A program made the translations under genes and the position numbers. Below are positions 4,069 through 19,842 of a DNA stretch of 64,000 nucleotides, one piece after another (positions within the stretch are counted from its first letter, which is position 1; every line of letters starts with the position of its first letter). Source of the DNA: Acidimicrobiaceae bacterium (GTDB taxonomy: Bacteria > Actinomycetota > Acidimicrobiia > Acidimicrobiales > RAAP-2); NCBI GenBank assembly GCA_003133325.1, contig PKXA01000111.1, forward strand, positions 62,001 to 126,000, read 5' to 3'. Under the pieces are notes generated by a model. It was not told where the DNA came from and did no database searches. It saw nothing but the letters and a program-made list of their open reading frames with translations.

Positions 4069-4126
4069 TCGAGCATCGCCGATGCGGGCGGTCCGGATTG
4101 CCGCCGGTTTCGACGGGAGTGGAGAG

Positions 4127-5644
4127 ATGACCATGTCACCGACGGTGGGCGCGGCACTACCCGAAGAGGGAATCCCCTACGGGACGCGGTTGCACCAGGT
4201 GGCCGAGCCCCGGCGTGACGAGGTGGCCATCGTGTTTGTTGCCGAAGACGGCGGTGAACGGAATGTCGACTGGGGTGAGCTCGATGATCGGTCGACCCAG
4301 CTGGCCCGGGTGCTCTCCGACCAGGGGTTGGCGGCGGGGGACTCCCTGGCCATCTCCTTGAAGAACTCCCCCGAACACCTCTTTACCTGTTTCGCCGGGT
4401 GGAAGGTGGGGGCCACGGTGGTGCCCATGCGCTGGGACCTGCCCGATTGGGAGCTGAACCGTTTGCTCGGGGTGCTGAAACCGGCCGTCGTGGTGGGGGC
4501 CGACGAGATCGAGTGGCTGGAGAGGAGCCGTTCGGAGTCGACCGAACCGCTCCCCGACGTGACGGCGCCGCACGGCTGGGGAGTGTGCAGCTCGGGGTCC
4601 ACCGGGGCACCGAAGATCATCGTGCAGAAGGACCCGGCGCTGTTCCTCCCCACCATGGTCGTGACCTCGACCGTCGTCGAGTCATTCGGTCAGTTGCCCA
4701 AACCGCAACTGGTGCTGCTGCCGGCCCCGCTCTACCACAGCAATGGATTCACCGCCGTCCGGAATCTGATGGCGGGTGACCCCATCGTGTTGCTGGAGCG
4801 GTTCAACGCCGCCCTCATCGTGGATCTCATCGAACGACACCGGATCACCGGCTTCATCGCCGCCACCCCCATGCTGCAGCGCCTTGCCCAGTTGCCCGAC
4901 ATCGCAGAGCGGGACCTCTCCAGCCTCACCTGGGTGCAACAAGGCGCCGCCTCCCTCCCGATCTGGTTGGGCCGGTTCTGGATCGACCTGGTCGGGCCCG
5001 AGCACTTCTACCTCTCCTACGGGTCCTCGGAGGGCGCCGGGCTGGTGGTCTGCCGGGGTGACCAGTGGCTCGACCACCCCGGCACCCTGGGCCGGGGGTT
5101 CACCGACACCGAGGTCCGCATCATCGGTGCCGACGGCCAGACCCTTCCGCCCGGCGAGATCGGCGGTATCTACCTCAAGCGACCCCAGGGCCCGGCGGCC
5201 ATGTACGTGGGCGACGATGTGGCGCCCATGGAGACCACGGCCGATGGCTTCGTGACGGTGGGGGACGTGGGGTGGCTCGACGAGGACGGGTATCTGTTTA
5301 TGGCCGACCGACGGGTCGACATGATCGTCACCGGCGGGGTCAACGTCTTTCCCGCCGAGGTGGAGGAGGCACTGAGCGAGCACCCCGGCATCATCGACGT
5401 GGTGGTGGTCGGCTTGGCCGACCCGGACTGGGGACGGCGGGTCCATGCCATCGTGCAGGCCCGTGATGCCACGGTGGGCGCCGACGATGTGATCGAGTTC
5501 GCCCGGGACCGGCTGGCCCCGTACAAGGTCCCGAAGACCGTCGAGTTCGTCGACATCATCCCGCGCAGTGAGGCCATGAAGCTCAACCGGGCCCAACTCA
5601 CCGCCGAGCGCGACGACGCGGTGCCCGCTGAAGACGGCCGGTGA
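4127..5644 (+). CDS. Acyl-CoA synthetase (AMP-forming, FadD-like)
   Basis: 505 aa member of the ANL superfamily that activates a carboxylic acid to its CoA thioester via an acyl-adenylate. Visible motifs: the ATP-binding loop CSSGSTGAPKI near residue 155, the GSSEG adenine-site motif near 300, GDVGWLDEDGYLF with the ribose-binding Asp, the hinge RRVDMIVTGGVNVFPAEVE, and a C-terminal Lys in EAMKLNR. It starts at ATG behind GGGAG/GGAGAG; the Met two codons later is an alternative. It follows the ferredoxin and precedes an enoyl-CoA hydratase on the same strand, so the product is probably passed into a beta-oxidation-like route. The substrate class cannot be read from the sequence. Confidence 0.9.
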   Translation: MTMSPTVGAALPEEGIPYGTRLHQVAEPRRDEVAIVFVAEDGGERNVDWGELDDRSTQLARVLSDQGLAAGDSLAISLKNSPEHLFTCFAGWKVGATVVPMRWDLPDWELNRLLGVLKPAVVVGADEIEWLERSRSESTEPLPDVTAPHGWGVCSSGSTGAPKIIVQKDPALFLPTMVVTSTVVESFGQLPKPQLVLLPAPLYHSNGFTAVRNLMAGDPIVLLERFNAALIVDLIERHRITGFIAATPMLQRLAQLPDIAERDLSSLTWVQQGAASLPIWLGRFWIDLVGPEHFYLSYGSSEGAGLVVCRGDQWLDHPGTLGRGFTDTEVRIIGADGQTLPPGEIGGIYLKRPQGPAAMYVGDDVAPMETTADGFVTVGDVGWLDEDGYLFMADRRVDMIVTGGVNVFPAEVEEALSEHPGIIDVVVVGLADPDWGRRVHAIVQARDATVGADDVIEFARDRLAPYKVPKTVEFVDIIPRSEAMKLNRAQLTAERDDAVPAEDGR

Positions 5645-5685
5645 CCGCGTGCCGGCTCGACTAGGTGGCCCCAGCGGGACTGGGC

Positions 5686-5691
5686 TATACC
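5686..5691 (+). promoter_or_regulatory. Possible -10 hexamer TATACC upstream of enoyl-CoA hydratase
   Basis: TATACC lies about 50 nt before an ATG that has its own Shine-Dalgarno (AAGGGGAG). It would give a short leader. Only the -10 is recognisable. Confidence 0.3.
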
Positions 5692-5740
5692 GTGCCGAGT
5701 TGGCGGCGCGGCCGATACGACGAGAAGGGGAGTTTCGAAG

Positions 5741-6658
5741 ATGACCGAATACAAGTACGTCACCTACGAGGAGTTGGAGGGCGGCGAGATCGTTCGGATT
5801 CTCCTCAACCGTCCCGAGACCCGGAACGCCCAGAACCGCGGGCTGCTGGTCGACCTCGATGACGCCATGGGCCGCGCCGAGGAGGACGACAAGGTTCGGG
5901 TGGTCATTCTCGGCGGGGTCGGGCCGCTCTTCTCCTCCGGGCACGACATGGGCTCCAAGGAAGCCATCGCCGAGCGCCGTCCCGGACCGGACCAACACCG
6001 CACCGCCACCATCAATGGGGCCACCCGCGAGGGAACAGAGGCGCGCATGCTCCAAGAGTGGCACTACTACTTCCAGAACACGATGAGATGGCGGAACCTG
6101 CGGAAGATCACCGTGGCGCAAGTGCAGGGAACCGTGTACTCGGCCGGGCTCATGCTCATGTGGGCCTGTGATCTGATCGTGGCCGCCGACGACGTGTACT
6201 TCGCCGACGTGGTGGGCACCCGGCTCGGGATGTGTGGGATGGAGTACTTCGGGCACCCGTGGGAGTTCGGGCCGCGTCGGACCAAGGAACTGATGCTGAC
6301 CGGCGATGCCATCGATGTCGAAGAAGCGCACCGGCTGGGGATGGTGAGCAAAATCTTCCCCGTCGCCGAGTTGACGGAGCAGACCCTCGCCTACGCCCGC
6401 CGCATTGCCAACGTCCCCACCATGACGGCACTGATGATCAAGGAGTCGGTGAACCAGACGGTGGACAACATGGGCTTCTACAATTCGCTGCAGGCCTGCT
6501 TCAACCTCCATCAGCTCAATCATTCCCACTGGGCCGAGATCCACGACAGCAAGTACCCGGTGGCCGAGCCTGCCGATGGTGTTCCCAATTGGAAGAACGC
6601 CCCCCCGGTCCGGTTGGCAGTGAAGGATGCGGTGGAGGGACCCGTTCCGGCCCGGTGA
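5741..6658 (+). CDS. Enoyl-CoA hydratase/isomerase family protein
   Basis: 305 aa crotonase-fold protein, longer than the usual 260 because of an insertion after the first oxyanion-hole strand (LFSSGHDMG near residue 68 followed by about 40 extra residues). The second oxyanion segment is QGTVYSAGLMLMWACDLIVA near residue 130. Crotonase enzymes hydrate, isomerise or cleave acyl-CoA. It shares the FSSGHDMG/FCAGH insertion layout with the hydratase gene at 14.7 kb, so the two may be paralogs. The start is well supported by AAGGGGAG, 11 nt upstream. Its stop overlaps the GTG start of the following acyl-CoA synthetase, implying translational coupling and a common substrate path. Confidence 0.88.
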   Translation: MTEYKYVTYEELEGGEIVRILLNRPETRNAQNRGLLVDLDDAMGRAEEDDKVRVVILGGVGPLFSSGHDMGSKEAIAERRPGPDQHRTATINGATREGTEARMLQEWHYYFQNTMRWRNLRKITVAQVQGTVYSAGLMLMWACDLIVAADDVYFADVVGTRLGMCGMEYFGHPWEFGPRRTKELMLTGDAIDVEEAHRLGMVSKIFPVAELTEQTLAYARRIANVPTMTALMIKESVNQTVDNMGFYNSLQACFNLHQLNHSHWAEIHDSKYPVAEPADGVPNWKNAPPVRLAVKDAVEGPVPAR

Positions 6659-8205
6659 GACTTCGACCGACCTACCGCCAGGCTGACGCCACGCGGTATC
6701 GGCGTCCCGGTGGCGCCTGGGACGTCCCGACACTCGACGAGTTGCTGGCCTCGCCTCGTCCGGCCGACGGTTCGGCCATCGTCGACGGGGACAACCGACT
6801 CGATGCCGCCACCGTCGAGCGACTGGTGGCGGCGGTGTCCGGCGGGCTCCGGGCACTGGGTGTCCACCGGGGTGACGTGGTCTGCTGGCAACTTCCCAAC
6901 TGGTGGGAGGCCATCGTTCTCTTCCGGGCCTGTTGGAGATGCGGTGCGGTGGCCGCCCCGATCCACCACCAGGTGGGGCCGGCCGAAGTCGGCGAGATGC
7001 TCGACTCCTTGGATCCGGTGGCTTCGTTGGCATCGACCGGGATGCCCCTGGCCGAACGAAAAGGGACCATCGGAGTACGTAACGGAGATCCCCGTTTCGA
7101 TGACCTGATGGCTGGCCGCCCGCTGCAGTCACCTCTCGGGCGAGGAGCGGACGTGGCGGTGGTGCTGTTCACCACCGGATCCACCGGGCATCCCAAAGCG
7201 GTGCTGCACTCCAATCGGGGCCTGGCCTACAAGGCCCTGTCCATGACGACAGCCCACGGTTTGTCGAGCACCGACACCGCGCTGATGCCGTCGCCGCTGG
7301 CTCACGTGTCCGGATTGTTGAACGCCGTGCTCGTGCCCGGGACGGCGGCCATGCCGGTGGTGTTGATGGAGAAATGGGATCCCGAGCTGGGAGTCCGTCT
7401 GGTTGGCGAGCACGCCGTCTCATTCATGATCGGCCCGCCCACGCTCTTTTTGGGAATGATGGACGTGGCCGGATCTCGGACCCACCTGAAGAGCCTGCGG
7501 GTGGTCTCGTGCGGCGGCATGGGGGTGACCCCCGAGTTCATCGACGCGGCCCGCCAAGAGTTCGGCGCCACCGTGAAGCGCACTTACGGATCGACCGAAG
7601 CCCCGACCATCACCACGTGCACCGCCGGTGACGGAGCCGACAAGGCACGGGATACCGACGGGCACTCGGTCGGTGACGCGGTCATTCGGGTGGTGGACCC
7701 GGTCAGCAACCGCAGTGTCCCGGCCGGGGAGCGAGGGGAGGTTCTCTTGCGGGGCCCCGAGCTCTTCGTCGGCTACGCCGACGAGAGCCAGACCAGAGAA
7801 GCTGTCCGCCGGGGATGGTTTGCCACCGGCGACCTGGGCACGCTCGACGGCGAGGGTTGGTTGACCATCGTGGGACGGGTGAAGGACCTGATCATCAGGG
7901 CGGGCGAGAACATCGCATCGGCAGAGGTGGAACGGCTGCTCGAGCTGCACCCCGGTGTCCGCCAGGCGGTGGTGGTCGGGTGCCCGGACAAACGGGTGGG
8001 GGAGCGGGTGGCGGCGTTCATCGTGGGGGACCGCCATCTCGACGTGGAAGAGTGTCGACGCTGGTTCGCGGCCCAGGGAGTGGCCCGGTTCAAGACGCCG
8101 GAGTTGGTGGTGCACCTCGAGGAGATCCCGCTGTTGGGGATCGGGAAGCCCGACCGTCCGGCGTTGCGGGCCCGGGTGGCCGCACTGTCCGCGGTCGGCC
8201 GGTGA
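6655..8205 (+). CDS. Acyl-CoA synthetase (AMP-forming)
   Basis: 516 aa. I start it at the GTG that overlaps the upstream TGA (GTGA) rather than at the far upstream track start, which lies in the antisense-like overlap with the hydratase. ANL motifs: VLFTTGSTGHPKAVLH near residue 165, YGSTEAP near 310, GWFATGDLGTLDGEGWL near 387, the hinge GRVKDLIIRAGENIASAEVE and the C-terminal catalytic Lys in LGIGKPDR. It is a second, distinct synthetase in the same run, which suggests either a different acid or re-activation of a chain-shortened product. Active-site elements are all present. Confidence 0.9.
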   Translation: MRLRPTYRQADATRYRRPGGAWDVPTLDELLASPRPADGSAIVDGDNRLDAATVERLVAAVSGGLRALGVHRGDVVCWQLPNWWEAIVLFRACWRCGAVAAPIHHQVGPAEVGEMLDSLDPVASLASTGMPLAERKGTIGVRNGDPRFDDLMAGRPLQSPLGRGADVAVVLFTTGSTGHPKAVLHSNRGLAYKALSMTTAHGLSSTDTALMPSPLAHVSGLLNAVLVPGTAAMPVVLMEKWDPELGVRLVGEHAVSFMIGPPTLFLGMMDVAGSRTHLKSLRVVSCGGMGVTPEFIDAARQEFGATVKRTYGSTEAPTITTCTAGDGADKARDTDGHSVGDAVIRVVDPVSNRSVPAGERGEVLLRGPELFVGYADESQTREAVRRGWFATGDLGTLDGEGWLTIVGRVKDLIIRAGENIASAEVERLLELHPGVRQAVVVGCPDKRVGERVAAFIVGDRHLDVEECRRWFAAQGVARFKTPELVVHLEEIPLLGIGKPDRPALRARVAALSAVGR

Positions 8206-8247
8206 CGGTGATGAAATGACAATCCATCGATCTGAAAGGAAGTGGTG

Positions 8248-9735
8248 ATGTCCGGAGGGATTGTGTCGTGGGGGGTTTATCTGCCCTACTGGCGGCTCGA
8301 GCGCGCTGCCATCGGCGCGGCGTTCGGCACTGCCACCGCCAGGGGAACCCGGGCGGTTGCCTCCTATGACGAGGACACCACCACCCTGGGTGTGGAGGCA
8401 GGGCGCCGGGCGCTGAGCATCGCCGGGGTGCCGGTTCCCGAGGATCTCTTCTTCTCCACCCCGGCTCCGGCATATCTCGACAAGACCAACGCCACCACGA
8501 TTCACGCTGCACTGGGCCTTCCGCCGGGTGCCGGCGCCTATGACCTCTGCGGTTCGGTGCGTTCGGCCTGGGCCACCATGAGCCTGACCGCCCTCAGCGG
8601 TGAGCGGCGTCCGTCCATGGCCGTCATCTCTGATCTGCGCACCGGTCTGCCGGGTGGGGCCGAAGAGAGCCAGGGAGGGGATGGTGCGGTGGCATTCGTC
8701 TTCGCTCCCGAGGGCGGTGTGGCCGAGGTGAAGGGACATGCATCGGTCACCGACGAATTCCTCGAGCGCTGGCGGATTCCGGGCGAGACAGCCTCCCGTC
8801 AATGGGAGGATCGCTTCGGCGAGGAGGTCTACCTACCTGCGGCCCGAGCCGCCTTCACCGCTGCGCTGCAGAACGCAGGCCTGACCATCGACGACGTCGA
8901 CCATTTGGTGGTGGCCGGCCTGCATGCCCGGGCCGTCGGTTCGCTGCGGAAATCGCTCGGCGTTCCGTCGGACCGTGTGGCCCCCGACCATGTGGCGCGC
9001 ATCGGGAATCTCGGTGCCGCCCAAGCCGGAGTGGGTCTGGCTGATGTGTTGGAACGCGGGTCTCCCGGCCAGGTGGTGGTGGTGCTCGAGCTCGCCGACG
9101 GGGCTGACGCGGTCGTGTTGCGCACCACGCCCGCCCTGGCCGCGGTACAAGAGGAACGGCGGAAGGCGGGCTCGATCGATGTCGCGGCACTGGCCGGCCA
9201 GGGTCGCGCCGACCTCCCGTATGCGGTGTTCCTCACCTGGCGGGGCCACCTCCGCCGTGAGCCCCCGCGCCGACCCGATCCCGAACGGCCCGATGCTCCC
9301 GCCATGCGACGGAACGAGAGTTGGAAATTCGGCTTCGTTGCCAGCCGTTGTGTGGCGTGCGGTTTTGTCCACCTTCCGCCCACCCGGGTCTGCCTGTCGT
9401 GCCGGGCCGTCGACCGGATGGAACCTCTGCGGCTGGCCGATGTGAGGGGCACGGTGGCCACCTACACCGTCGATCGATTGGCGTTCAGTCTTTCACCGCC
9501 CATGGTCGGAGCGGTGATCGACTTCGACGGCGGCGGTCGATACCGGGGAGAGATGACCGACGTCGACCCCGGGACGGTGTCCATTGGCACCCGGGTCGAG
9601 ATGACCTTCCGGCGCCTCTACACCGCCGAAGGGGTACATAATTACTTCTGGAAGGCTCGGCCCCTGTCCGACGGCGGCGGAGCAACGGACGAGGACGCCG
9701 GGTCGGTTGACGCGGGTGGAACAGAGAGAGGCTGA
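8248..9735 (+). CDS. HMG-CoA synthase-like thiolase-fold protein fused to a DUF35 (rubredoxin/OB-fold) domain
   Basis: 495 aa from the ATG six nt after AAAGGAAG. Residues 1 to about 330 match the archaeal/bacterial HMG-CoA synthase-like branch of the thiolase superfamily: SYDEDTTTLGVEAGRRAL near residue 40 and the probable nucleophile Cys101 in YDLCGSVRSAW. From about 350 a zinc ribbon (CVACGF plus CLSC) leads into an OB fold, the DUF35 pair that in archaea bridges thiolase and HMG-CoA synthase and in mycobacteria partners Ltp2 aldolases. Here the bridge is fused to the synthase-like domain. The thiolase gene starts two bases after the stop. The pair probably does a C-C bond forming or breaking step on an acyl-CoA. 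Which reaction is inference. Confidence 0.85.
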   Translation: MSGGIVSWGVYLPYWRLERAAIGAAFGTATARGTRAVASYDEDTTTLGVEAGRRALSIAGVPVPEDLFFSTPAPAYLDKTNATTIHAALGLPPGAGAYDLCGSVRSAWATMSLTALSGERRPSMAVISDLRTGLPGGAEESQGGDGAVAFVFAPEGGVAEVKGHASVTDEFLERWRIPGETASRQWEDRFGEEVYLPAARAAFTAALQNAGLTIDDVDHLVVAGLHARAVGSLRKSLGVPSDRVAPDHVARIGNLGAAQAGVGLADVLERGSPGQVVVVLELADGADAVVLRTTPALAAVQEERRKAGSIDVAALAGQGRADLPYAVFLTWRGHLRREPPRRPDPERPDAPAMRRNESWKFGFVASRCVACGFVHLPPTRVCLSCRAVDRMEPLRLADVRGTVATYTVDRLAFSLSPPMVGAVIDFDGGGRYRGEMTDVDPGTVSIGTRVEMTFRRLYTAEGVHNYFWKARPLSDGGGATDEDAGSVDAGGTERG

Positions 9736-9736
9736 C

Positions 9737-10942
9737 ATGGCCAGCAGAGGGATTCGTGACCGGGTGGCGATCGTGGGAATGGGTTGCACCCCCTTCGGCG
9801 AACTGTGGGACAAGAGCGTCGACGACCTCCTCACCGATGCCACCGTGGAGTGTGTGGACTCGGCTGGCATCTCCCTCGACGACGTCGACGCCTTCTGGTT
9901 GGGGACCATGGGTTCGGGCCTCTCGGGCCTCACCCTCTCCCGACCGCTCAAGATCGATTACAAACCGGTGACCCATGTGGAGAACTTCTGCGCCACCGGC
10001 TCGGAAGCGTATCGAAATGCCTGTTACGCGGTGGCCTCCGGCGCCTACGACCTGGCCATGGCCGTCGGGGTGGAGAAGCTGAAGGACTCGGGCTATTCCG
10101 GACTCACCGGGATCCGACAGGTCGGGGACGGGACCCTCGCCGGGCTGAGCTCTCCCGCGGCGTTTTCGTTTCTGGTGCCGGCGTATGCCCACAAGTACGG
10201 GGTGGATCCGGACGAGTTGAAGTCGGTGCTCACCCGGATCGCCTGGAAGAACCACCGGAACGGGGCCGTGAACCCCCGGGCCCAATTTCGCAAGGAGGTC
10301 TCCATGGAGAAGATCGCCTCCTCGCCACTGGTGGCGGGCGAGCTCGGAGTGTTCGACTGCAGCGGAGTGAGCGATGGGGCCGCCGCGGTGGTGGTGTGCC
10401 GGGCTGAGGATGCGCACCGGTATACCGACACGCCGCTCTACGTCAAGGGACTCAGCTTGGTGGCCGGACCGGCGGCCGGCATCATCGATCCCGACTATGA
10501 CTACACCAGTTTCGAAGAGGTGGTCAGGTCAGCCGCCGATGCCTATCACCAGGCCGGGATCACCGATCCCCGCGCCCAGCTGGCCATGGCTGAAGTCCAC
10601 GACTGCTTCACCCCGACCGAGTTGGTACTGATGGAGGACCTCGGTTTCGCCGAGCGGGGCACGGCGTGGAAGGAGGTGATGGCCGGGACGTTCGACCGGG
10701 ACGGGGAGCTTCCCGTCAACCCCGACGGTGGACTCAAGAGCTTCGGGCACCCGATCGGGGCCTCGGGATTGCGGATGCTCTTCGAGTGTTGGCTGCAGCT
10801 GAGGGGAAAGGCCCCACCCGAACGTCAGATCGCCGGCGTGGGCGAGGGCGGCCGTACGCTCGGTCTCACCCACAACCTCGGCGGTGGCCCAGGTGAGTGC
10901 GTCAGTTTCGTGGGTGTGGTGGGAAGCCAACTGTCGGACTGA
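9737..10942 (+). CDS. SCP-x type thiolase / lipid-transfer thiolase-fold protein
   Basis: 401 aa starting MASRGIRDRVAIVGMGCTPF, directly after the DUF35 fusion gene and with AGAGAGAGG just upstream of its ATG. NFCATGSEAYRNACYAV carries the first active-site Cys near residue 91, SFGHPIGASG near 335 carries the conserved His, and GECVSFVGVVG near the end the second Cys. It belongs to the SCPx/Ltp group, whose members are thiolases of branched or steroid side chains, or aldolases when partnered with DUF35 proteins. Its position next to an HMG-CoA-synthase-like/DUF35 fusion argues for a physical complex. Substrate unknown. Confidence 0.88.
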   Translation: MASRGIRDRVAIVGMGCTPFGELWDKSVDDLLTDATVECVDSAGISLDDVDAFWLGTMGSGLSGLTLSRPLKIDYKPVTHVENFCATGSEAYRNACYAVASGAYDLAMAVGVEKLKDSGYSGLTGIRQVGDGTLAGLSSPAAFSFLVPAYAHKYGVDPDELKSVLTRIAWKNHRNGAVNPRAQFRKEVSMEKIASSPLVAGELGVFDCSGVSDGAAAVVVCRAEDAHRYTDTPLYVKGLSLVAGPAAGIIDPDYDYTSFEEVVRSAADAYHQAGITDPRAQLAMAEVHDCFTPTELVLMEDLGFAERGTAWKEVMAGTFDRDGELPVNPDGGLKSFGHPIGASGLRMLFECWLQLRGKAPPERQIAGVGEGGRTLGLTHNLGGGPGECVSFVGVVGSQLSD

Positions 10943-11023
10943 GAGCCTGGGTGCGATTGCCCGGCAGGCCTTGGCTACCATGGCCCGGTCCGGTCTTCGG
11001 TTCGTAGCGACAAGGGGGGACAC

Positions 11024-12247
11024 ATGGGGCATGGTGGAGGTGTCGATCCTTTCGCCGAGAACGAGGACCAGACGGCTCTCCGCCAACTGGCCCGTGAGGT
11101 GGCGGCCCGGGAGATCGCCCCGCGCGCCGCCCATCACGACGAGACGGGCGAGCTGCCGCGCCAGGCCATCAAGGCGCTGGCCGATGCCGACCTCTTTCGT
11201 GTGACGATCGGCGAACAATGGGGCGGCCTGGGCATGGGCGACGTGGAGGCGGCCATCGTGCTGGAGGAGATCGCCCGCCACGACGTGTCGTCAGCCATCT
11301 GTTGTCAGCTGGCGTACAACGGCCCGGCCAGGGGAATCGAGCATCTGGGTAGCCCGGGGCTGAAAGACCGGTGGCTACCCGCGGTGGCCGACGGCGATGC
11401 CATCATCAGCATCGGGATCACCGAACCCGATGCCGGCTCCGCCGTGCAGTCCATGCGCTCCGCGTTGACCGAGGACGGTCAGGGACGGTGGCGGCTCAAC
11501 GGCTACAAGAACTACTCGACACTCGGGCATGGGGCGGCCGCCGTGCTGGTCTGGTGCCGATGGCCGGGAGGCGACGGGGCCCGGGGGATCGGAGCCGTGG
11601 TGGTGCCGACCGATCGGCAAGGGGTGGAGCTGACCGGTCTGCATCGGGGAATGGGAATCCACGCCGCCACCGAATCGGAGATGGCCTTCGACGGGGTATT
11701 GATCACCGAGGAAGATGTGCTGCTGGCCGGTGACCCGGGTTCCTCCGAGCCGTTCAAGCTCTTGTTGTCCCATCTCAATCATGAGCGCTGCGGCAACGCC
11801 GCCATGTGTGTGGGGGCCGCCCAGGGTGCTCTCGAACTCTCGGTCGACTATATGAACGATCGCATCGTCGGTGGGCGGCCGATCGCCGAACTGCAGGGCC
11901 TGCAGTGGAAGCTGGCGGACATGGCGGTGGCTCTCGAGGGCGCGCGCATGCTGTTGGCCCGAGCCGTACGCCTGGCCGGGCCGGGGGGCACGCCACCGCC
12001 GATGGAGACGGCCATGGCCAAGGCCGCCGCCAACCTGGCGGCCAAGTACGTCTGTGACGAGGCCATACAGATTCACGGTGGGTACGGCTACAGCCGCGAG
12101 TATCCGCTGGAGCGGGCCTATCGGGATATCCGCGGACTGTGCATCGGGGCCGGCACTGTCGAGGCACAGCGCAATTTCATCGGCTCGAGCATGGTTCGGG
12201 GCCGGACCACCGTTTCCGCCGGCTGGCGGACCCCGGCGCCGGGATGA
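11024..12247 (+). CDS. Acyl-CoA dehydrogenase
   Basis: 407 aa, full length for a FAD acyl-CoA dehydrogenase. Start ATG follows AAGGGGGGA. Flavin and substrate segments: ITEPDAGSAVQSM near residue 135 and IQIHGGYGYSREYPLERAYR near 348. At the usual base position (YEGT in medium-chain enzymes) it reads IGAGTVEAQR, so the Glu is absent there; an alternative Glu sits in NHERCGNAAM, as in isovaleryl-CoA dehydrogenase. It should introduce an alpha,beta double bond into an acyl-CoA. Placed 80 nt after the thiolase and 55 nt before the E1 alpha gene, so it probably belongs to the same transcription run. Confidence 0.9.
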   Translation: MGHGGGVDPFAENEDQTALRQLAREVAAREIAPRAAHHDETGELPRQAIKALADADLFRVTIGEQWGGLGMGDVEAAIVLEEIARHDVSSAICCQLAYNGPARGIEHLGSPGLKDRWLPAVADGDAIISIGITEPDAGSAVQSMRSALTEDGQGRWRLNGYKNYSTLGHGAAAVLVWCRWPGGDGARGIGAVVVPTDRQGVELTGLHRGMGIHAATESEMAFDGVLITEEDVLLAGDPGSSEPFKLLLSHLNHERCGNAAMCVGAAQGALELSVDYMNDRIVGGRPIAELQGLQWKLADMAVALEGARMLLARAVRLAGPGGTPPPMETAMAKAAANLAAKYVCDEAIQIHGGYGYSREYPLERAYRDIRGLCIGAGTVEAQRNFIGSSMVRGRTTVSAGWRTPAPG

Positions 12248-12301
12248 CGTCGCCGGCTGGTTCGCTCCGGACCGATCGATGATGGACGAAGGGGGACTGG
12301 G

Positions 12302-13327
12302 ATGACGGTGTCCACAACGCAGCCCGTTGGGTCAGGCGGCTCGAACGAAGGCCTCACCGACGATGCCGCGCTGCGCATCTTCCGCACCGTGACCACCATC
12401 CGTTCCACCGAGGACCGGATCATCAGGGGATTGAGTTCGGGGGAGCTCCGGATGACCTACTACACGGTCAGGGGCCAGGAGGTGATCCCGGCGGCCATCT
12501 GCGAGCATCTGCGGCGCGACGACTACATGGTCACCACCTACCGCGGGATGCACGACTGCATCGCCAAGGGGGTTCCTCTCGACGAACTGGTGGCGGAGAT
12601 GTGCGGAAAGGTGACCGGCACCTCCAAGGGGAAGGGCGGGCCCATGCACCTCTCCGACCCGCAGTCGGGACTGATGGTCACCACCGGAGTGGTGGGCGGC
12701 GGACTCCCCATCGCGGTCGGCCTGGCTCTGTCGAGCAAACTCCGGGGCACCGATCAGGTCACCGTGGTGAACTTCGGTGACGGAGCCACCAGCATCGGTG
12801 CCACCCACGAGGCGTGCAACCTGGCCGCGCTCTGGGAGGTCCCCGTCGTCTTCGTGTGCCAGAACAACCAGTACGGCGAGCACACCAAGTTCGCCGACTA
12901 CACCCGGTCGCCGAGCCTGGCCGAACGATTTCGCGGCTACGGGATGGAGGCCCGGACGGTGGACGGGAACAGCGTCCCCGCCATGCACGAGGCGGCCGCG
13001 GAGGCCATCGGGGCGGCACGCTCCGGCTCTGGCCCGGTCTTCTTGGAGTGCCTGACCTACCGACTGGGCGGCCATTCCTTCGGGGCCACCACCGAGTACA
13101 TGGACCCCGACGAGTTGTCGCAGGCAGAGGCGAACGAGCCGGTCGGCCGGTACCGCCGATGGCTGGTGGACCAGCGGGGGATCGGCGAGGACGTGCTTGC
13201 CGACATCGAGGCGGCGGTGGTGTCGAGCGTCGAGGCGGCGGTCGAGGCGGCGAAGGCCAGCCCACCTCCGGCGCCCGAAGAACTGTTGACCGATGTGTTC
13301 TCGAGCGTGGAGGCGCTCCCGCGATGA
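12302..13327 (+). CDS. TPP-dependent 2-oxoacid dehydrogenase E1 component, alpha subunit
   Basis: 341 aa. The thiamine-diphosphate motif is clear: VNFGDGATSIG at about residue 158 through to QNNQYGEH near 190 (GDG...N spacing about 27). TTYRGMHDCIAKG and GGPMHLSD are also E1-alpha hallmarks. The family decarboxylates pyruvate, branched 2-oxoacids or acetoin and transfers the acyl or hydroxyalkyl group to a lipoyl arm. The start has GAAGGGGG upstream. It overlaps the beta-subunit start by 4 bp (ATGA). Which oxoacid is used cannot be told; the position among acyl-CoA genes favours a branched-chain-like or acetoin-like role over central pyruvate dehydrogenase. Confidence 0.9.
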   Translation: MTVSTTQPVGSGGSNEGLTDDAALRIFRTVTTIRSTEDRIIRGLSSGELRMTYYTVRGQEVIPAAICEHLRRDDYMVTTYRGMHDCIAKGVPLDELVAEMCGKVTGTSKGKGGPMHLSDPQSGLMVTTGVVGGGLPIAVGLALSSKLRGTDQVTVVNFGDGATSIGATHEACNLAALWEVPVVFVCQNNQYGEHTKFADYTRSPSLAERFRGYGMEARTVDGNSVPAMHEAAAEAIGAARSGSGPVFLECLTYRLGGHSFGATTEYMDPDELSQAEANEPVGRYRRWLVDQRGIGEDVLADIEAAVVSSVEAAVEAAKASPPPAPEELLTDVFSSVEALPR

Positions 13328-14310
13328 CGACGGATGATCCGATCCACACCCTGTCCGAAGCCGTGAACCAGGCGATGGACATCGCCATGGCCGAGGACCC
13401 CGATGTCTTCGCCCTCGGTGAGGACATCGAGGACCCCATCGGTGGCGTCATGAAGGGGACCAAGGGCCTCTCGACGAAGTACGGACGGGAGCGGGTACGC
13501 AACACCCCGATCTCCGAGCAGGCCATCGTGGGGGCCGCCATCGGCGCGTCATTGGTGGGGATGCGCCCGATCGCCGAGGTGATGCTGATGGACTTCTTCG
13601 CGGTGGCCATGGACCAGGTGGCGAACCACGCGGCCAAGCTCCGGTACATGTCGGGTGGGCGGACCAACGTCCCCATCACCATCCGCACATCTGTCGGGGG
13701 CGGCCGCCAATTCGGGGCGCAGCACTCCCAGTCGCTCGAGGCCTGGATGATGCACATCCCCGGTCTGAAGGTGGCGGTTCCGAGTACGCCCCGCGACGCC
13801 AAGGGCCTGCTGTACTCGTGCATCTTCGATGACGACCCCTGCATCTTCATGGAGACCATGTCGTTGTTGTTCACCCGTGGGCCGGTGCCACCCGGACGTT
13901 TCGAGATTCCCCTCGGCGTCGCCGACGTGAAGCGGGCCGGTGACGACGTCTCGGTGGTGACCTGGGGGTGGCAGGTGCCCGAGGCCCTGGCCGCGGCCGA
14001 GACCCTGGCCGACGAGGGCATCAGCGTGGAGGTGGTCGACCTCCGGACCCTGGTACCGCTGGACCGGGATGCCATTCTCCGCAGTGTGGCCAAGACGACC
14101 CGGGCGGTGGTGGTGCATGCCGCCACCCAGTTCGCCGGCCCCGGGGCGGAGATCGCCTCGCTGGTGGGACACGAGCTCTTCGGCCGGCTTTCGGCCCCGG
14201 TCGAACGCATGGGCGCCGCCTACTCGCCGGTGCCATACGCCGCCGAGTTGGAGTCGTTGCACTATCCCGAGCGGAAACGGATCGCCGCCACCATCCGGGC
14301 CATGGCCTGA
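13324..14310 (+). CDS. TPP-dependent 2-oxoacid dehydrogenase E1 component, beta subunit
   Basis: 328 aa, starting at the ATG that overlaps the alpha-subunit stop; the ORF track extends it far upstream in error. It has the transketolase-like pyrimidine-binding layout: FALGEDIEDPIGGVMKGTKG near residue 27, RVRNTPISEQAIVGAAIG near 59 (with the conserved Glu of E1 beta) and the C-terminal regulatory domain GPGAEIASLVGHELF near 275. Forms the alpha2beta2 E1 with the preceding gene. The stop is one base from the lipoyl-protein ATG, so the three genes form one translational unit. Confidence 0.9.
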   Translation: MTTDDPIHTLSEAVNQAMDIAMAEDPDVFALGEDIEDPIGGVMKGTKGLSTKYGRERVRNTPISEQAIVGAAIGASLVGMRPIAEVMLMDFFAVAMDQVANHAAKLRYMSGGRTNVPITIRTSVGGGRQFGAQHSQSLEAWMMHIPGLKVAVPSTPRDAKGLLYSCIFDDDPCIFMETMSLLFTRGPVPPGRFEIPLGVADVKRAGDDVSVVTWGWQVPEALAAAETLADEGISVEVVDLRTLVPLDRDAILRSVAKTTRAVVVHAATQFAGPGAEIASLVGHELFGRLSAPVERMGAAYSPVPYAAELESLHYPERKRIAATIRAMA

Positions 14311-14311
14311 C

Positions 14312-14581
14312 ATGAACGATACCGGCGACTCTTCCATGCCGGAGAAGAATCGGACCCCGATCAAGATCCCTCAGGCCGGCGTGGCCATCACCGAGGGCAC
14401 CATCATCGAATGGCTGGCAGCCGAAGGCGATCAGGTCGCTTCGGGACAGCCGCTGTACCGGCTCGAGACCGAGAAGGTGGAGATGGAAATGGAGTGCCCG
14501 GCGTCGGGCACCATCCACCTCATCGGCCAGATCGGGCAGCCCTATCCGGTCGGCGAGGACATCGGCTTCATCGATCCCTGA
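14312..14581 (+). CDS. Free-standing lipoyl (biotinyl/lipoyl-attachment) domain protein
   Basis: 89 aa, about one lipoyl domain and nothing else. IPQAGVAITEGTIIEWLAAE opens the beta-barrel and the Lys of LETEKVEMEME sits on the expected hairpin turn for lipoylation (E-T-D/E-K pattern). It lacks the peripheral-subunit binding domain and the acyltransferase domain of an E2. A Met nine codons in (MPEKNR) is an alternative start. It starts one base after the E1 beta stop, so it is presumably the swinging arm for this E1; the acyltransferase and E3 would have to come from elsewhere. Compared with glycine cleavage H protein it is too short. Confidence 0.87.
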   Translation: MNDTGDSSMPEKNRTPIKIPQAGVAITEGTIIEWLAAEGDQVASGQPLYRLETEKVEMEMECPASGTIHLIGQIGQPYPVGEDIGFIDP

Positions 14582-14673
14582 GAGGCCATCGGCAAAGTAC
14601 CCTGTTGGCTCACCGTCAAGGTGGCCGTGGAGAACGGGGCAAACCCGTCCTGCGCCTTACCAGGAGGAGTGGC

Positions 14674-15525
14674 ATGGAGAGCACGGAACTCGAGACGATC
14701 ATCTACGAGAAGGACGGCGCGATCGCCCGCATCGTGTTGAACATGCCGGAGAAGGCGAACATCCAGACCGCGCAACAGGTATGGGACTTCGAGGACTGCC
14801 TGACCCGGGCCGACCGTGACGAGGAGGTGAAGGTCGTCATCGTGAAGGCGAACGGGAAGGGGTTCTGTGCCGGCCACGCCATCGTCAGCCACGAAGAGAT
14901 GGCCGACGTCTATCCCACCACCGGCCCGACGCCGGAGCGGACCTGGAAGAAGCACAACTACGACCTCTTCCTCTGGCCGCCGCTGCGACTCTGGGAGTTC
15001 CCCAAGGCGACCATCGCCCAGGTCCACGGCTACTGCCTCGGGGGCGGCACCATCTATAGCCATATGTGTGATCTCACCATCGCATCCGACGACGCGTACT
15101 TTCAGATGCCCCTGCCCCAGGGGTTCGGGCTGCCCGGCGCCCAGACCCTCGTCGAGCCCTGGATGTTGATGAACTGGAAGCGGGCCTACGAGTACCTGTA
15201 CCTGTCGCCGACCCTGTCGGCGGAGAAGGCTCGCGAATGGGGCCTGGTCAACCGGGTGGTGCCACGAGCGGACCTCGAGGCGACTGTGGAGGAGACAGCC
15301 AGGACCATCGCCCAGATGCCCCTGACCACCATCATGACGGTGAAGGCCGGGGTGAAGCGGGCCTGGGAGACGATGGGCATGCGTGTCCATCTCCAGAGCA
15401 CCGCCGACTTCACCTCGATCGCCAGTTCGGCCACCGACGTGCGGGAGTTCATGGTGAAACAAAGTGGGCAGCGGCCGCGCCAGGTGGCCGAGAACCAGTC
15501 GCAGGCGGCGCGCCAGGCGGACTGA
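14674..15525 (+). CDS. Enoyl-CoA hydratase/isomerase family protein
   Basis: 283 aa crotonase-fold protein with a very good Shine-Dalgarno (AGGAGGAG, 4 nt before ATG). First oxyanion strand GKGFCAGHAIVSHEEM near residue 65 followed by a 35-residue insertion, second oxyanion segment GYCLGGGTIYSHMCDLTIA near 120. The His-Ala in FCAGHAI differs from the usual GHD. The layout resembles the hydratase at 5.7 kb and both have an aromatic-rich insertion (NYDLFLWPPLRLWEF here), suggesting a bulky substrate. The last 20 residues are a Gln/Arg-rich tail. It ends convergent with the SnoaL-like gene, 19 bp away. Confidence 0.88.
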   Translation: MESTELETIIYEKDGAIARIVLNMPEKANIQTAQQVWDFEDCLTRADRDEEVKVVIVKANGKGFCAGHAIVSHEEMADVYPTTGPTPERTWKKHNYDLFLWPPLRLWEFPKATIAQVHGYCLGGGTIYSHMCDLTIASDDAYFQMPLPQGFGLPGAQTLVEPWMLMNWKRAYEYLYLSPTLSAEKAREWGLVNRVVPRADLEATVEETARTIAQMPLTTIMTVKAGVKRAWETMGMRVHLQSTADFTSIASSATDVREFMVKQSGQRPRQVAENQSQAARQAD

Positions 15526-16096: not shown

Positions 16097-17824
16097 ATGG
16101 CCGAAAGCGCACGCCGGCCGTCGCTGGGACAGCGGGTGGCCGATCTCGCCGGGCTCGCCCACCGGCCCGGGGTCCCGTCCTCACCGACGACACCCCGCAC
16201 CGCGGCTCCCGAGGAGCACGACGTGGTGGTGGTGGGCAGTGGTGCCTCCGCCCTCTCCGCCGCGGCCGGCGCTCTCAGCACCGGCGCCTCGGTGGTGGTG
16301 TGTGAGAAGGGGCCGGTGCCCGGGGGGACGACCGCCTGCTCGGGCGGCGTGGCCCACATCTATGCGAATGCGGTGATGCAGGCGGCCGGGATCGCCGATG
16401 ACCGCCACGAAGCGCTGGCCTATATGGCCCGGGTGGGCTATCCGGGTGCCTACGATCCCGACGCTCCCTGTTGTGGGCTCCTGCCCGAGGCCTACGCGCT
16501 GCTCGAGACGTACTACGACCGGGGGGCCGAGGTGATGGCCCGCCTGGGAGTCCTCGACGCGGTCCACATGAAGGCTCCCTGGTTGGCATGGGACGGCCAG
16601 ATGTTCCCCGACTACTACGAGTTTCCCGAGAACCGGGCCCTGCGGGGACGGGGCATCCAGGCGGTGGCGCCCGACGGCGGAGCCGGCAGCGGGGGTGAGC
16701 TGGTGCGCCAGCTCATGGCCTTCGCCGCCGGCCGGGGCACCGAGGTGCGGCTGGGCAATCGGGTCGTCGACCTGGTGGTGGAGGCCGGCGAGGTGACCGG
16801 GGTGGTGGTGGACGACGGATCGCACTGTCGGACAATCCGGGCCCATGGGGGAGTGGTGTTCGGGTCGGGCGGCTTCGCCCACAGCCCCGAGCTCCGCCAG
16901 CGCTTCCTGCGCGGTCCGGTCGCCGGTGGCTCGGGCACCCCATCGAATACCGGCGATCTGGTGGGGATCGGGGTGCGGGTCGGTGCCGAGTTCGGTGCCA
17001 TGCAGAACGGATGGTGGAACCAACAGGTACTCGAGGCCGTCGACGACTACGCCACCTCGGTGCTCGATGTCTGGTCGATGCCCGGCGACGGCATGCTGAT
17101 GGTCAACCGGTTCGGGGTCCGGGCCATCGGCGAGAAGCGGGAGTACGAGTCGCGCGGGCGGGTGCACCACGTATTCGCGGACGACGAATACGTGAATCGG
17201 GTGATGTTCATGGTCTATGACCGACGGACGGCTGAACGCTACGGGGGCCGGTACCCGATCCCGCCGGTGGGAGCGGTGGCCGATCACGTGGTCACCGGCT
17301 CGGGGGTCCTCGGCCTGGCCGAGGCCCTGGGCCAACGGCTCCGCAGTCGGTCGAGGGCGGCCATGCCCGCCGGGATCGCTCCGGTGGACCTGTCTCCCGG
17401 GTTCGCCGAGACCCTCACCGCCACCATCACGAAGTTCAATTTCATGGCCGAACAGGGGAGGGACGACGACTTCGGTCGGGGCTCGAAGGCTGTCGAGTTC
17501 GCCTTCCACGGTCCCCGCGCCGCGGACAATCACCTGCCCAACGCCCTCATGCACCCCCTCGATCTCGAGGGTCAGCTGTATGCCATCTCCCTGGTCGGCA
17601 CCACCTTCGATACCAACAGTGGACCTCGCATCGGCACCCAGGGTCGGATTCTGGGCACGGCTGGGCCCATCGGGGGCCTCTACGGAGCGGGAAACTGTGT
17701 CGACGGAGTGTTCGGGGAGGGCTACCCGGGCGGCGGATCGACCATAGGCCCGGGCATGGTGTTCGGGTTCCTGGCCGGGGCGCACGCCGGGGCGCGGTCA
17801 TCCCGCGTCGGCAGCCTCCGATGA
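16097..17824 (+). CDS. FAD-dependent oxidoreductase of the 3-ketosteroid dehydrogenase / fumarate reductase family
   Basis: 575 aa. The dinucleotide-binding motif VVVGSGASALSAAAGAL lies near residue 38, followed by GGTTACSGGVAHIY and, at the C-terminus, GLYGAGNCVDGVFGEGYPGG with STIGPGMVFGFLAG, the closing FAD segment of the KstD/FRD-like family. Members dehydrogenate 3-ketosteroid A rings (delta-1 or delta-4) or reduce double bonds. The extra 35 N-terminal residues are Pro/Ala-rich. The stop overlaps the next gene by 4 bp (ATGA). I call the family with confidence, but a steroid substrate is only suggested by the Rieske oxygenase two genes downstream. Confidence 0.87.
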   Translation: MAESARRPSLGQRVADLAGLAHRPGVPSSPTTPRTAAPEEHDVVVVGSGASALSAAAGALSTGASVVVCEKGPVPGGTTACSGGVAHIYANAVMQAAGIADDRHEALAYMARVGYPGAYDPDAPCCGLLPEAYALLETYYDRGAEVMARLGVLDAVHMKAPWLAWDGQMFPDYYEFPENRALRGRGIQAVAPDGGAGSGGELVRQLMAFAAGRGTEVRLGNRVVDLVVEAGEVTGVVVDDGSHCRTIRAHGGVVFGSGGFAHSPELRQRFLRGPVAGGSGTPSNTGDLVGIGVRVGAEFGAMQNGWWNQQVLEAVDDYATSVLDVWSMPGDGMLMVNRFGVRAIGEKREYESRGRVHHVFADDEYVNRVMFMVYDRRTAERYGGRYPIPPVGAVADHVVTGSGVLGLAEALGQRLRSRSRAAMPAGIAPVDLSPGFAETLTATITKFNFMAEQGRDDDFGRGSKAVEFAFHGPRAADNHLPNALMHPLDLEGQLYAISLVGTTFDTNSGPRIGTQGRILGTAGPIGGLYGAGNCVDGVFGEGYPGGGSTIGPGMVFGFLAGAHAGARSSRVGSLR

Positions 17825-18453
17825 AACTCGCCTATCGGGACAGTGGCGCAGTTGTCCCGGGAGTTCCGGGAATTCCCGCGGTCGTCTTCCACCGCGACGG
17901 CATGACTTCGATCGACGAACTCTCCGGGGTGGCGGTGGCCAGCGGCATGGTCGGACGGGTGGTGGCCCCCTACGGCGACTACGCCTTCTACCCGAGCGGG
18001 ATGGAGGTCGGAGGTATCTGTTGGTACCGGGCTCTACCCGGGTCCTTGGGGACCGACCCCATCTCCCTCACCCGGGCGGTGGTGCAGGCCGGTGATCTCC
18101 TCGACGACCTCGACCTCGACCGCCCGGTGCTCATCGGCTGGGGACAGGGAGGGGTGGTGGCCCTGGGGGCCGGCCTGCTCCGGCCCGATCGGGTGGGCTC
18201 GGTGATCTGTGTGGATGCTCTGTCCGAGCACTTCGATCTTCTGCCGGCCCCTGCGCTCACCGCCGACCCGGCTCCGCCGGTGCTCCTGGCCATCACCGAC
18301 CCGGACGGGGGCCCGACCCTCACCGATCAACAGGCGCGACTCGCCGGCCATGGCATCACCTCGGCCACCTGGCAGTGGTCGGGTGGGGGCACCGGAGAGG
18401 ACCGGGACTCGGCGATGGCCGAACGGATCGGGCAGTGGCTCGAGGATGGCTAG
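17821..18453 (+). CDS. Alpha/beta-hydrolase-like protein lacking the nucleophile serine
   Basis: 210 aa with the short carboxylesterase/phospholipase layout: VLIGWGQGGVVALGAGLL near residue 103 is the nucleophile-elbow strand-turn-helix, then SVICVDALSEHFD and LLAITDPDGGPTL for the acid region. The elbow reads G-W-G-Q-G, so Gly108 stands where the catalytic Ser should be, and no His follows in a good GxxH context near the C-terminus. It is probably non-catalytic or works by another mechanism. It is translationally coupled to the flavoprotein (ATGA overlap) and followed 18 bp later by the Rieske oxygenase, so the three genes form an operon. Confidence 0.7.
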   Translation: MKLAYRDSGAVVPGVPGIPAVVFHRDGMTSIDELSGVAVASGMVGRVVAPYGDYAFYPSGMEVGGICWYRALPGSLGTDPISLTRAVVQAGDLLDDLDLDRPVLIGWGQGGVVALGAGLLRPDRVGSVICVDALSEHFDLLPAPALTADPAPPVLLAITDPDGGPTLTDQQARLAGHGITSATWQWSGGGTGEDRDSAMAERIGQWLEDG

Positions 18454-18471
18454 TGCAGAGTGGGGTCGGCG

Positions 18472-19842
18472 ATGACCACCACGCCGGTGCCGGACCTCAA
18501 TGGGGGTCTCGAGGTGCCTGACCATTGGCGATTGGGCACGGCGTTCGTGCCCAAGGGCCGCTATCTCGACTCCGAGTTCCTCGGTCTCGAGCTCGAACGC
18601 CTCTTCCCCCGGACGTGGTTGAACGCCTGCCGGCACGACGAGGTGGAGCGGGTCGGGCAGTACGTCAACTTCGAGATCGGGGACCAGTCGGTAGTGGTGG
18701 TCCGGACCGAGGCCGGGCTGAAGGCGTACCTCAACGCCTGTCGCCACCGCGGGACCCGGCTGGTGAACGGGCAGGGCCGGATGGCCGAGTTCCGCTGCCC
18801 GTTCCACGCCTGGCGTTGGAATCTCGACGGGTCACTCAAGTATCAGGCCGACGCCGAGCACTTCGTTCCGCGGCCGGCCGAGGAGATCTGCCTGGCCGAG
18901 TGCCGGATCGGGACGTGGGGAGGATGGGTCTTCATCAACCTGGACGGCGGTGCCGAGCCGCTGGAGGACTTCCTCGACCCGCTGCCGGAACGGCTGGACG
19001 GCTTCAAACTCGAGGACATGCGGATCGCCTGGTACAAGTCGGTCATCCTCCCGGCCAACTGGAAGACGGCTCTCGACGCCTTCATCGAGAGTTGGCACGT
19101 CCCGGGCACCCACCCCCAACTCCTCCGTCCCGACAAGCACGCGACGCCACCGACGATCACCGAGTGCCGGCAGTACGGCTCCACCTTCAACGAGCTCTTC
19201 CGGCTGCACTCGCGGCATGCGGACCTCTTCCGGTACGGCCCGGATGGCGACTCGAGCAAGCTCCGTGCCGGGTACCGGGCCGATCCCGAGGCGATCTACC
19301 GGAACATCGAGTACTCGCTGCGTGAGCTCGGCGCGCTCTACCTGAAGTCCGATCTGGCCGCCGCGGCCGAGTTGCGGATCACCGAGGGAGGGGACGGCCC
19401 AACGGGCAACGCCATCTACCAGCAGCTCCGCCGACAGCATGCCCGGGCCGCGGGCATCGACTACCCCGAGCTCACCGACGAGCAGTTGAAAGGGGCCATG
19501 TACGACTGGCACGTGTTCCCCAACAGTGTGTTCCTCATCGATATGGGCTGTTGCCTCACCTACCGGGCCAGACCCAACGGTGGCGACCCGGACAGCTGCA
19601 TCTTCGACGTGCAGGGTCTCGAGCTCCCACCGGCCGACGGCCTGCCCACCGCCTCGCCCCAGATCTTCGGTGACTGGCGGGACGGGAACATGGGAGAGAT
19701 CCTCAGCCAGGATTTCTCCAACATGTCGGAGGTGACCGCCGGGATGCACTCCCGGGGGTACGACGGTCATCGTCTGAATACGGCACAGGAGATGACGATC
19801 TGGAACTATCACCGGGCCATGGACGGCTACCTGTTCAGCTGA
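18472..19842 (+). CDS. Rieske non-heme iron ring-hydroxylating oxygenase, alpha subunit
   Basis: 456 aa. The Rieske cluster ligands are NACRHRGTRLV near residue 85 and FRCPFHAWRW near 105 (CxH...CxxH). The catalytic-domain iron site shows in ALDAFIESWHVPGTHPQLL near residue 200, with two His spaced five apart. Such oxygenases hydroxylate aromatic or steroid rings using electrons from a reductase. No beta subunit or reductase gene is adjacent; the ferredoxins at 3.9 and 33.4 kb are not Rieske-type. The start chosen is ATG; an in-frame GTG four codons earlier is possible. Genes upstream (flavoprotein, hydrolase-like) are probably co-transcribed. Confidence 0.9.
   Translation: MTTTPVPDLNGGLEVPDHWRLGTAFVPKGRYLDSEFLGLELERLFPRTWLNACRHDEVERVGQYVNFEIGDQSVVVVRTEAGLKAYLNACRHRGTRLVNGQGRMAEFRCPFHAWRWNLDGSLKYQADAEHFVPRPAEEICLAECRIGTWGGWVFINLDGGAEPLEDFLDPLPERLDGFKLEDMRIAWYKSVILPANWKTALDAFIESWHVPGTHPQLLRPDKHATPPTITECRQYGSTFNELFRLHSRHADLFRYGPDGDSSKLRAGYRADPEAIYRNIEYSLRELGALYLKSDLAAAAELRITEGGDGPTGNAIYQQLRRQHARAAGIDYPELTDEQLKGAMYDWHVFPNSVFLIDMGCCLTYRARPNGGDPDSCIFDVQGLELPPADGLPTASPQIFGDWRDGNMGEILSQDFSNMSEVTAGMHSRGYDGHRLNTAQEMTIWNYHRAMDGYLFS

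Follow-up and report, generated by a model that had tools for sequence, protein, structure and literature searches.

The window (the whole stretch of 64,000 nucleotides analysed here) derives from a genome of 4.05 Mb and 66% G+C, and contains two closely spaced genes in a probable acyl-CoA catabolic operon (Table 1). The first encodes a protein, hereafter the fusion, in which an HMG-CoA-synthase (HMGS)-like domain is continued by a DUF35 zinc ribbon and OB fold; its stop codon (TGA, 9733-9735) is followed by a single base and then by the ATG of the second gene, a thiolase, just 5' of which lies a purine-rich AG stretch. The locus is thus as an earlier note on this DNA had described it, with an HMGS-like protein fused to DUF35 and a thiolase starting right behind. 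Three Pfam families score above their cut-offs in the one fusion protein, namely ACP_syn_III_C (residues 207-281), zf-ChsH2 and OB_ChsH2_C, the last two forming the zinc ribbon/OB fold tandem that characterises DUF35, and the ribbon cysteines are spaced C-x2-C-x10-C-x2-C. With phmmer, residues 4-335 align to the HMGS of 6ESQ, and the entire first two-thirds of the fusion is therefore an HMGS-like thiolase-fold domain.

Table 1. Positions, in window coordinates, of the fusion, the thiolase and their principal features.
Feature	Position	Strand	Basis or remark
Probable acyl-CoA catabolic operon around the pair	4082..15525	+	
Shine-Dalgarno-like AAGGAAG, 5' of ATG 8248	8236..8242	+	sequence
Fusion gene, pseudo-HMGS + zinc ribbon + OB fold (DUF35)	8248..9735	+	single ORF, 495 aa
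HMGS/FabH-like thiolase-fold domain, aa 1-335, without catalytic residues	8248..9252	+	
Pro72, aligned with catalytic Glu82 of M. thermolithotrophicus (Mt) HMGS	8461..8463	+	family alignment
Cys101, catalytic Cys proposed in the earlier note; aligns with Mt Glu111	8548..8550	+	family alignment
Val104, aligned with catalytic Cys114 of Mt HMGS	8557..8559	+	family alignment
Ala223, aligned with His238 of Mt HMGS	8914..8916	+	family alignment
Zinc ribbon zf-ChsH2, aa 363-387; Cys368, 371, 382, 385	9334..9408	+	Pfam
OB fold OB_ChsH2_C, aa 400-455	9445..9612	+	Pfam; best PDB match 6esq_E
SCP2-type thiolase (NCBIfam PRK06157), 401 aa	9737..10942	+	
Nucleophilic Cys85 of the thiolase	9989..9991	+	conserved 109/109
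HDCF motif, residues 288-291 of the thiolase	10598..10609	+	conserved 109/109
His338 of the GHP motif of the thiolase	10748..10750	+	conserved 109/109

An AlphaFold2 model of the fusion, computed from 86 family sequences after five rows from annotated plasmid records were left out, reached a mean pLDDT of 92.5 and a pTM of 0.92, with disorder only in the last 20 residues and a weaker linker at about residues 340-360. The fusion is accordingly predicted with confidence to fold as a single chain, and the high pTM suggests that its DUF35 part is held in a fixed position on the synthase-like part. Against the PDB, the fusion matches the HMGS (6esq_I, 1e-19) and the DUF35 protein (6esq_E, 9e-11) of the archaeal acetoacetyl-CoA thiolase/DUF35/HMG-CoA synthase complex (6ESQ, 6ET9). 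The ten best Foldseek matches of the model are all HMGS-like subunits, from 6ESQ/6ET9, PhlABC (5M3K, 5MG5), its homologue 9SKH and MucABC (9VBO, 9VBT), and no chain among the listed matches spans the full fused architecture.

Full-length homologues of the fusion are present in 91/296 genomes of the class and 27/150 genomes of the phylum, which excludes a chance arrangement, and a scan of genome contigs recovered at least 569 relatives. The matches listed include Actinomycetota, Myxococcota/Deltaproteobacteria, Gammaproteobacteria, Acidobacteriota (Thermoanaerobaculia), Rokubacteria and Chloroflexi bins, the nearest named relatives among them being Acidimicrobiia. A thiolase lies directly 3' of the fusion in every testable relative that we fetched (about 140 loci from several phyla). 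In an automatic search, 115/119 fusion entries (a few of which repeat one another) had a same-strand downstream thiolase, mostly -20 to +152 bases away; at two further loci (L064 and L076) it was found on inspection, two (L054 and L090) end at a contig edge, and some 25 additional loci gave no exception. Judged by this gene order, the fusion and the thiolase form an old, conserved and obligate gene pair, whose divergences are correlated (r = 0.91 over 106 pairs, partly reflecting shared descent). The source genome holds a second pair on another contig (51% and 70% identity), adjoining acyl-CoA-dehydrogenase-type genes. All three component families (thiolase, DUF35, HMGS-like) are encoded together, two of them as one chain in the window and its relatives; a natural fusion of all three was not found, as a stop or a change of frame separates the genes at twelve loci with long frames and at all other new loci. 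A candidate triple fusion at L064, with a frame of 831 residues, was rejected, its second half being out of frame with the thiolase. At that locus (L064:7995-10490) the fusion gene lacks a stop and reads out of frame over the overlapping thiolase gene, which is either a sequence error or real readthrough.

By alignment, the synthase-like domain is without an active site across the whole fused family. From the general HMGS mechanism and the alignment, we take His238 of Mt HMGS to be its third catalytic residue. The two residues described as key for this enzyme are Glu82 and Cys114 (PMC6392133). None of the 118 rows of the family alignment has the catalytic Glu, Cys or His at these three positions; the Glu82 column contains Thr/Ala/Ser/Val/Pro, the Cys114 column mostly Val/Leu/Ala/Pro/Ile, and the His238 column mostly Thr/Ala/Ser/Pro/Asp. 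Cys101 lies three columns before the catalytic Cys position and is Cys in 5/118 rows, so the synthase catalysis that the earlier note had made depend on this residue falls with it. Cysteines anywhere within columns 99-107 occur in scattered family members only, and the loss of the catalytic Cys in the window is therefore not a lone alignment slip. The thiolase/FabH-type fold itself is retained (TM 0.88-0.89 of target length for the model against 6esq_I/J), and the fusion falls far short of the NCBIfam equivalog models for HMG-CoA synthase (PRK04262, 134.5 against a cut-off of 244 bits; TIGR00748, 91.6 against 353.35). A candidate for a true HMGS elsewhere in the source genome, on contig C113, was discarded as an ordinary FabH-like ORF on the basis of its N-terminus.

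The thiolase contains Thiolase_N and Thiolase_C_1 and no SCP2 domain (Pfam); the label “SCP-x thiolase” in the earlier note consequently fits the type of thiolase domain and not the absent SCP2 domain. Its PRK06157 score is 589.4 against a cut-off of 403 bits, the family name “acetyl-CoA acetyltransferase” being no proof of activity. HDCF is a hallmark of SCP2-type thiolases and carries their second catalytic Cys (PMC7682436), and from its conserved motifs the active site is intact in the window and in the family. The best PDB match of the thiolase is that of the archaeal complex (6esq_A, 6e-57, 197 bits), with other thiolases next in rank. All three parts of the assembly thus match 6ESQ first or near-first, and the analogy drawn by the earlier note holds. 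As the motif would suit Claisen condensation or acyl transfer equally well (PhlC has the same Cys and His), the direction of the reaction rests on gene context.

That context is one of acyl-CoA catabolism, at the window and at related loci, as had been proposed. The probable operon has two genes each for acyl-CoA ligases and enoyl-CoA hydratases, one for an acyl-CoA dehydrogenase, and those for 2-oxoacid dehydrogenase E1 alpha/beta and a free lipoyl domain; neighbours of the pair elsewhere comprise acyl-CoA ligases, acyl-CoA dehydrogenases, hydratases, SDRs, CoA-transferases and MaoC dehydratases. The E1 alpha, E1 beta and free 83-residue lipoyl (14330-14578) genes occupy 12302-14581 of the window. 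A hydratase gene follows the lipoyl gene at 14584, and an E2 acyltransferase is absent between these two. A conserved role of these genes with the pair was considered and dropped, since E1 alpha homologues occur at none of 62 long related loci. Beyond the operon (16097-19842) lie an FAD_binding_2 oxidoreductase and a Rieske ring-hydroxylating oxygenase, which hint at a ring substrate.

The pair also occurs in a cluster of the type known for estradiol degradation (edc). On plasmid p3 of Novosphingobium ES2-1, genes for an acyl-CoA dehydrogenase and an SDR, in this order, precede the fusion and the thiolase, which are followed by two hydratases, a lipid-transfer protein, an OB-fold protein and a P450; VOC genes and an indolepyruvate ferredoxin oxidoreductase lie divergently to this series. 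The edc OpA operon of N. tardaugens has been described with the same gene order. In the ES2-1 pair, too, all three catalytic residues are missing from the fusion, and Cys, HDCF and GHP are retained in the thiolase. From gene order we infer that EGO55_13555 and the thiolase EGO55_13550 of N. tardaugens are a fusion/thiolase pair. The accessible part of the 2020 description of EGO55_13555 calls it an “HMG-CoA synthase” that its authors could not place and proposed might be non-condensing; a DUF35 domain and a loss of catalytic residues are not mentioned there (PMC7793797). The edc-type cluster (L125:13517-15108) additionally encodes a separate lipid-transfer protein with a YDAF motif region and a stand-alone DUF35 protein, so that two different thiolase-fold/DUF35 pairs are present in one pathway.

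We consider it probable that the two genes encode one heteromeric degradative thiolase, putatively cleaving bulky 3-ketoacyl-CoA with the aid of a fused pseudo-synthase/DUF35 scaffold; the physical complex, the roles of the non-catalytic domains, the direction of the reaction and the class of substrate are what we infer within this proposal. The SCP2-type thiolase would be the catalytic subunit, with Cys85 as nucleophile, Cys290 of HDCF as acid/base and His338 in the oxyanion hole, and the dead HMGS-like domain fused to DUF35 would be the other subunit. If the archaeal complex and PhlABC are a guide, DUF35 would dock on the thiolase and help to form the acyl-CoA cleft, and the pseudo-synthase domain would serve as a rigid scaffold and as one wall of the substrate cavity. 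The most likely reaction would be CoA-dependent thiolysis of a bulky 3-ketoacyl-CoA, as a step in the breakdown of a ring or steroid-like substrate by a pathway resembling beta-oxidation. A degradative thiolase with a zinc-finger DUF35 partner is known in benzoylsuccinyl-CoA thiolase BbsAB (7PXP), which differs in that the accessible parts of the open-licence literature examined report no HMGS-like partner domain for it; the window thiolase matches BbsB at 8e-34 and scores 132.9 bits on the BbsAB equivalog NF053628, whose cut-off is 750. A bolder version of the proposal, which we regard as rather doubtful, is that the vacated pseudo-synthase pocket binds the bulky ring part of the substrate. 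A pseudoenzyme domain would then determine the specificity of a new type of enzyme, a thiolase or retro-Claisen enzyme dedicated to steroids or rings, which in Acidimicrobiia would also exist in zinc-free form.

Alternatively, the pair could be an acyltransferase resembling PhlABC, moving an acyl group onto a carbon of a nucleophilic acceptor, or could perform a biosynthetic Claisen step, rather than thiolysis. The PhlABC Friedel-Crafts acylase (5M3K; homologue 9SKH) likewise combines a dead HMGS-like A subunit, a DUF35 B subunit and an active thiolase-like C subunit (PMC6392133), PhlA being non-catalytic with Gly115 and Cys83 in place of HMGS catalytic residues (PMC6392133). A profile of the fusion family is almost equally close to PhlA (9skh, 195 bits; 5m3k, 188) and to the 6esq HMGS (189). 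The window pair shares the dead A-type and the active C-type subunit, but its A and B parts are fused, and its thiolase is much nearer to the archaeal acetoacetyl-CoA thiolase than to PhlC and its homologue (1e-21 to 9e-24, 80-87 bits); no close PhlC-type subunit in a polyketide cluster is present, and in place of polyketide (DAPG) genes the neighbours are of beta-oxidation type. We therefore judge such an acyltransferase unlikely. The multicomponent acyltransferase MucABC, whose thiolase-like partner is matched as well as its HMGS-like subunit, is more distant (131 bits with the family profile) and without a fusion.

It is also conceivable, and to us quite improbable, that the fusion acts on the thiolase only as a chaperone-like or regulatory pseudoenzyme, keeping it stable but taking no part in forming its active site. 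In favour of this, the fusion has the faster divergence of the two proteins (mean identity 0.45 vs 0.61 for the thiolase), and some family members have lost the zinc site: of 106 relatives, 63 have all four zinc cysteines and 43 have none, with no partial cases. Against such a role, residues invariant in the family (P13, D41, D43, E140, R355, D409, R455, W468, K469) are spread across the synthase-like part as well as the OB part. In a tree built without the ribbon columns, zinc presence and absence require about three changes; forms without zinc (e.g. L002, L008, L012) are concentrated in Acidimicrobiia, with a few further actinobacteria, and include the second fusion copy of the source genome. 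As the complete set of zinc cysteines has disappeared from certain Acidimicrobiia relatives, the contribution of DUF35 may vary, and the fused family contains lineages whose DUF35 has lost its zinc site entirely.

That two active sites held together by DUF35 channel acyl-CoA between condensation and cleavage, as the earlier note proposed, is very improbable: the three-part architecture is that of the archaeal complex, in which thiolase and HMGS share a CoA site, but the catalytic residues of the synthase are missing in the window and throughout the family. The archaeal HMGS and DUF35 are separate and the synthase is active in the mevalonate pathway, whereas the window has one chain, a dead synthase and a setting of acyl-CoA catabolism. 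Retro-aldol cleavage of a 3-hydroxyacyl-CoA side chain, with DUF35 as the partner domain, is scarcely credible either. In the steroid aldolases Ltp2-ChsH2 and Sal-Shy, a thiolase-fold enzyme does partner a DUF35 domain that is itself part of a different protein of the pathway (PMC12329534), and the edc cluster is a steroid-type context; however, DUF35 is there fused to a hydratase, the aldolase motif is YDHF in Ltp2 and YDCY in Sal, which has Gly at the position of the nucleophilic Cys (PMC12329534), and all 109 family thiolases have HDCF together with Cys85, while the edc-type cluster already possesses its separate lipid-transfer protein/DUF35 pair.

With the degradative heteromeric thiolase as the preferred reading, a large family whose members carry the annotation “HMG-CoA synthase” or “OB-fold domain-containing protein” would most likely be a non-catalytic subunit of such thiolases and not a synthase. 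The fused family would also represent a third natural wiring of the thiolase/DUF35/HMGS-like assembly, which is otherwise separate with an active synthase or separate with a dead one. Fusion of DUF35 to thiolase-superfamily domains and the active/inactive pair in phlABC were noted in 2010 (PMC2954200). It appears, from the open-licence literature and with priority uncertain, not to have been stated before that the synthase domain is dead throughout the fused family, which is always accompanied by an intact SCP2-type thiolase and is found in catabolic clusters including edc.

Rieske oxygenase genes also lie near the pair on Rhodococcus and M. avium plasmids. Three such loci (L037, L038 and L126, from Rhodococcus and Mycobacterium avium plasmids) share a cluster in which the fusion/thiolase pair is accompanied by three hydratases, an AMP-ligase and a Rieske oxygenase of two subunits, possibly an undescribed pathway for aromatic or ring acyl-CoA.
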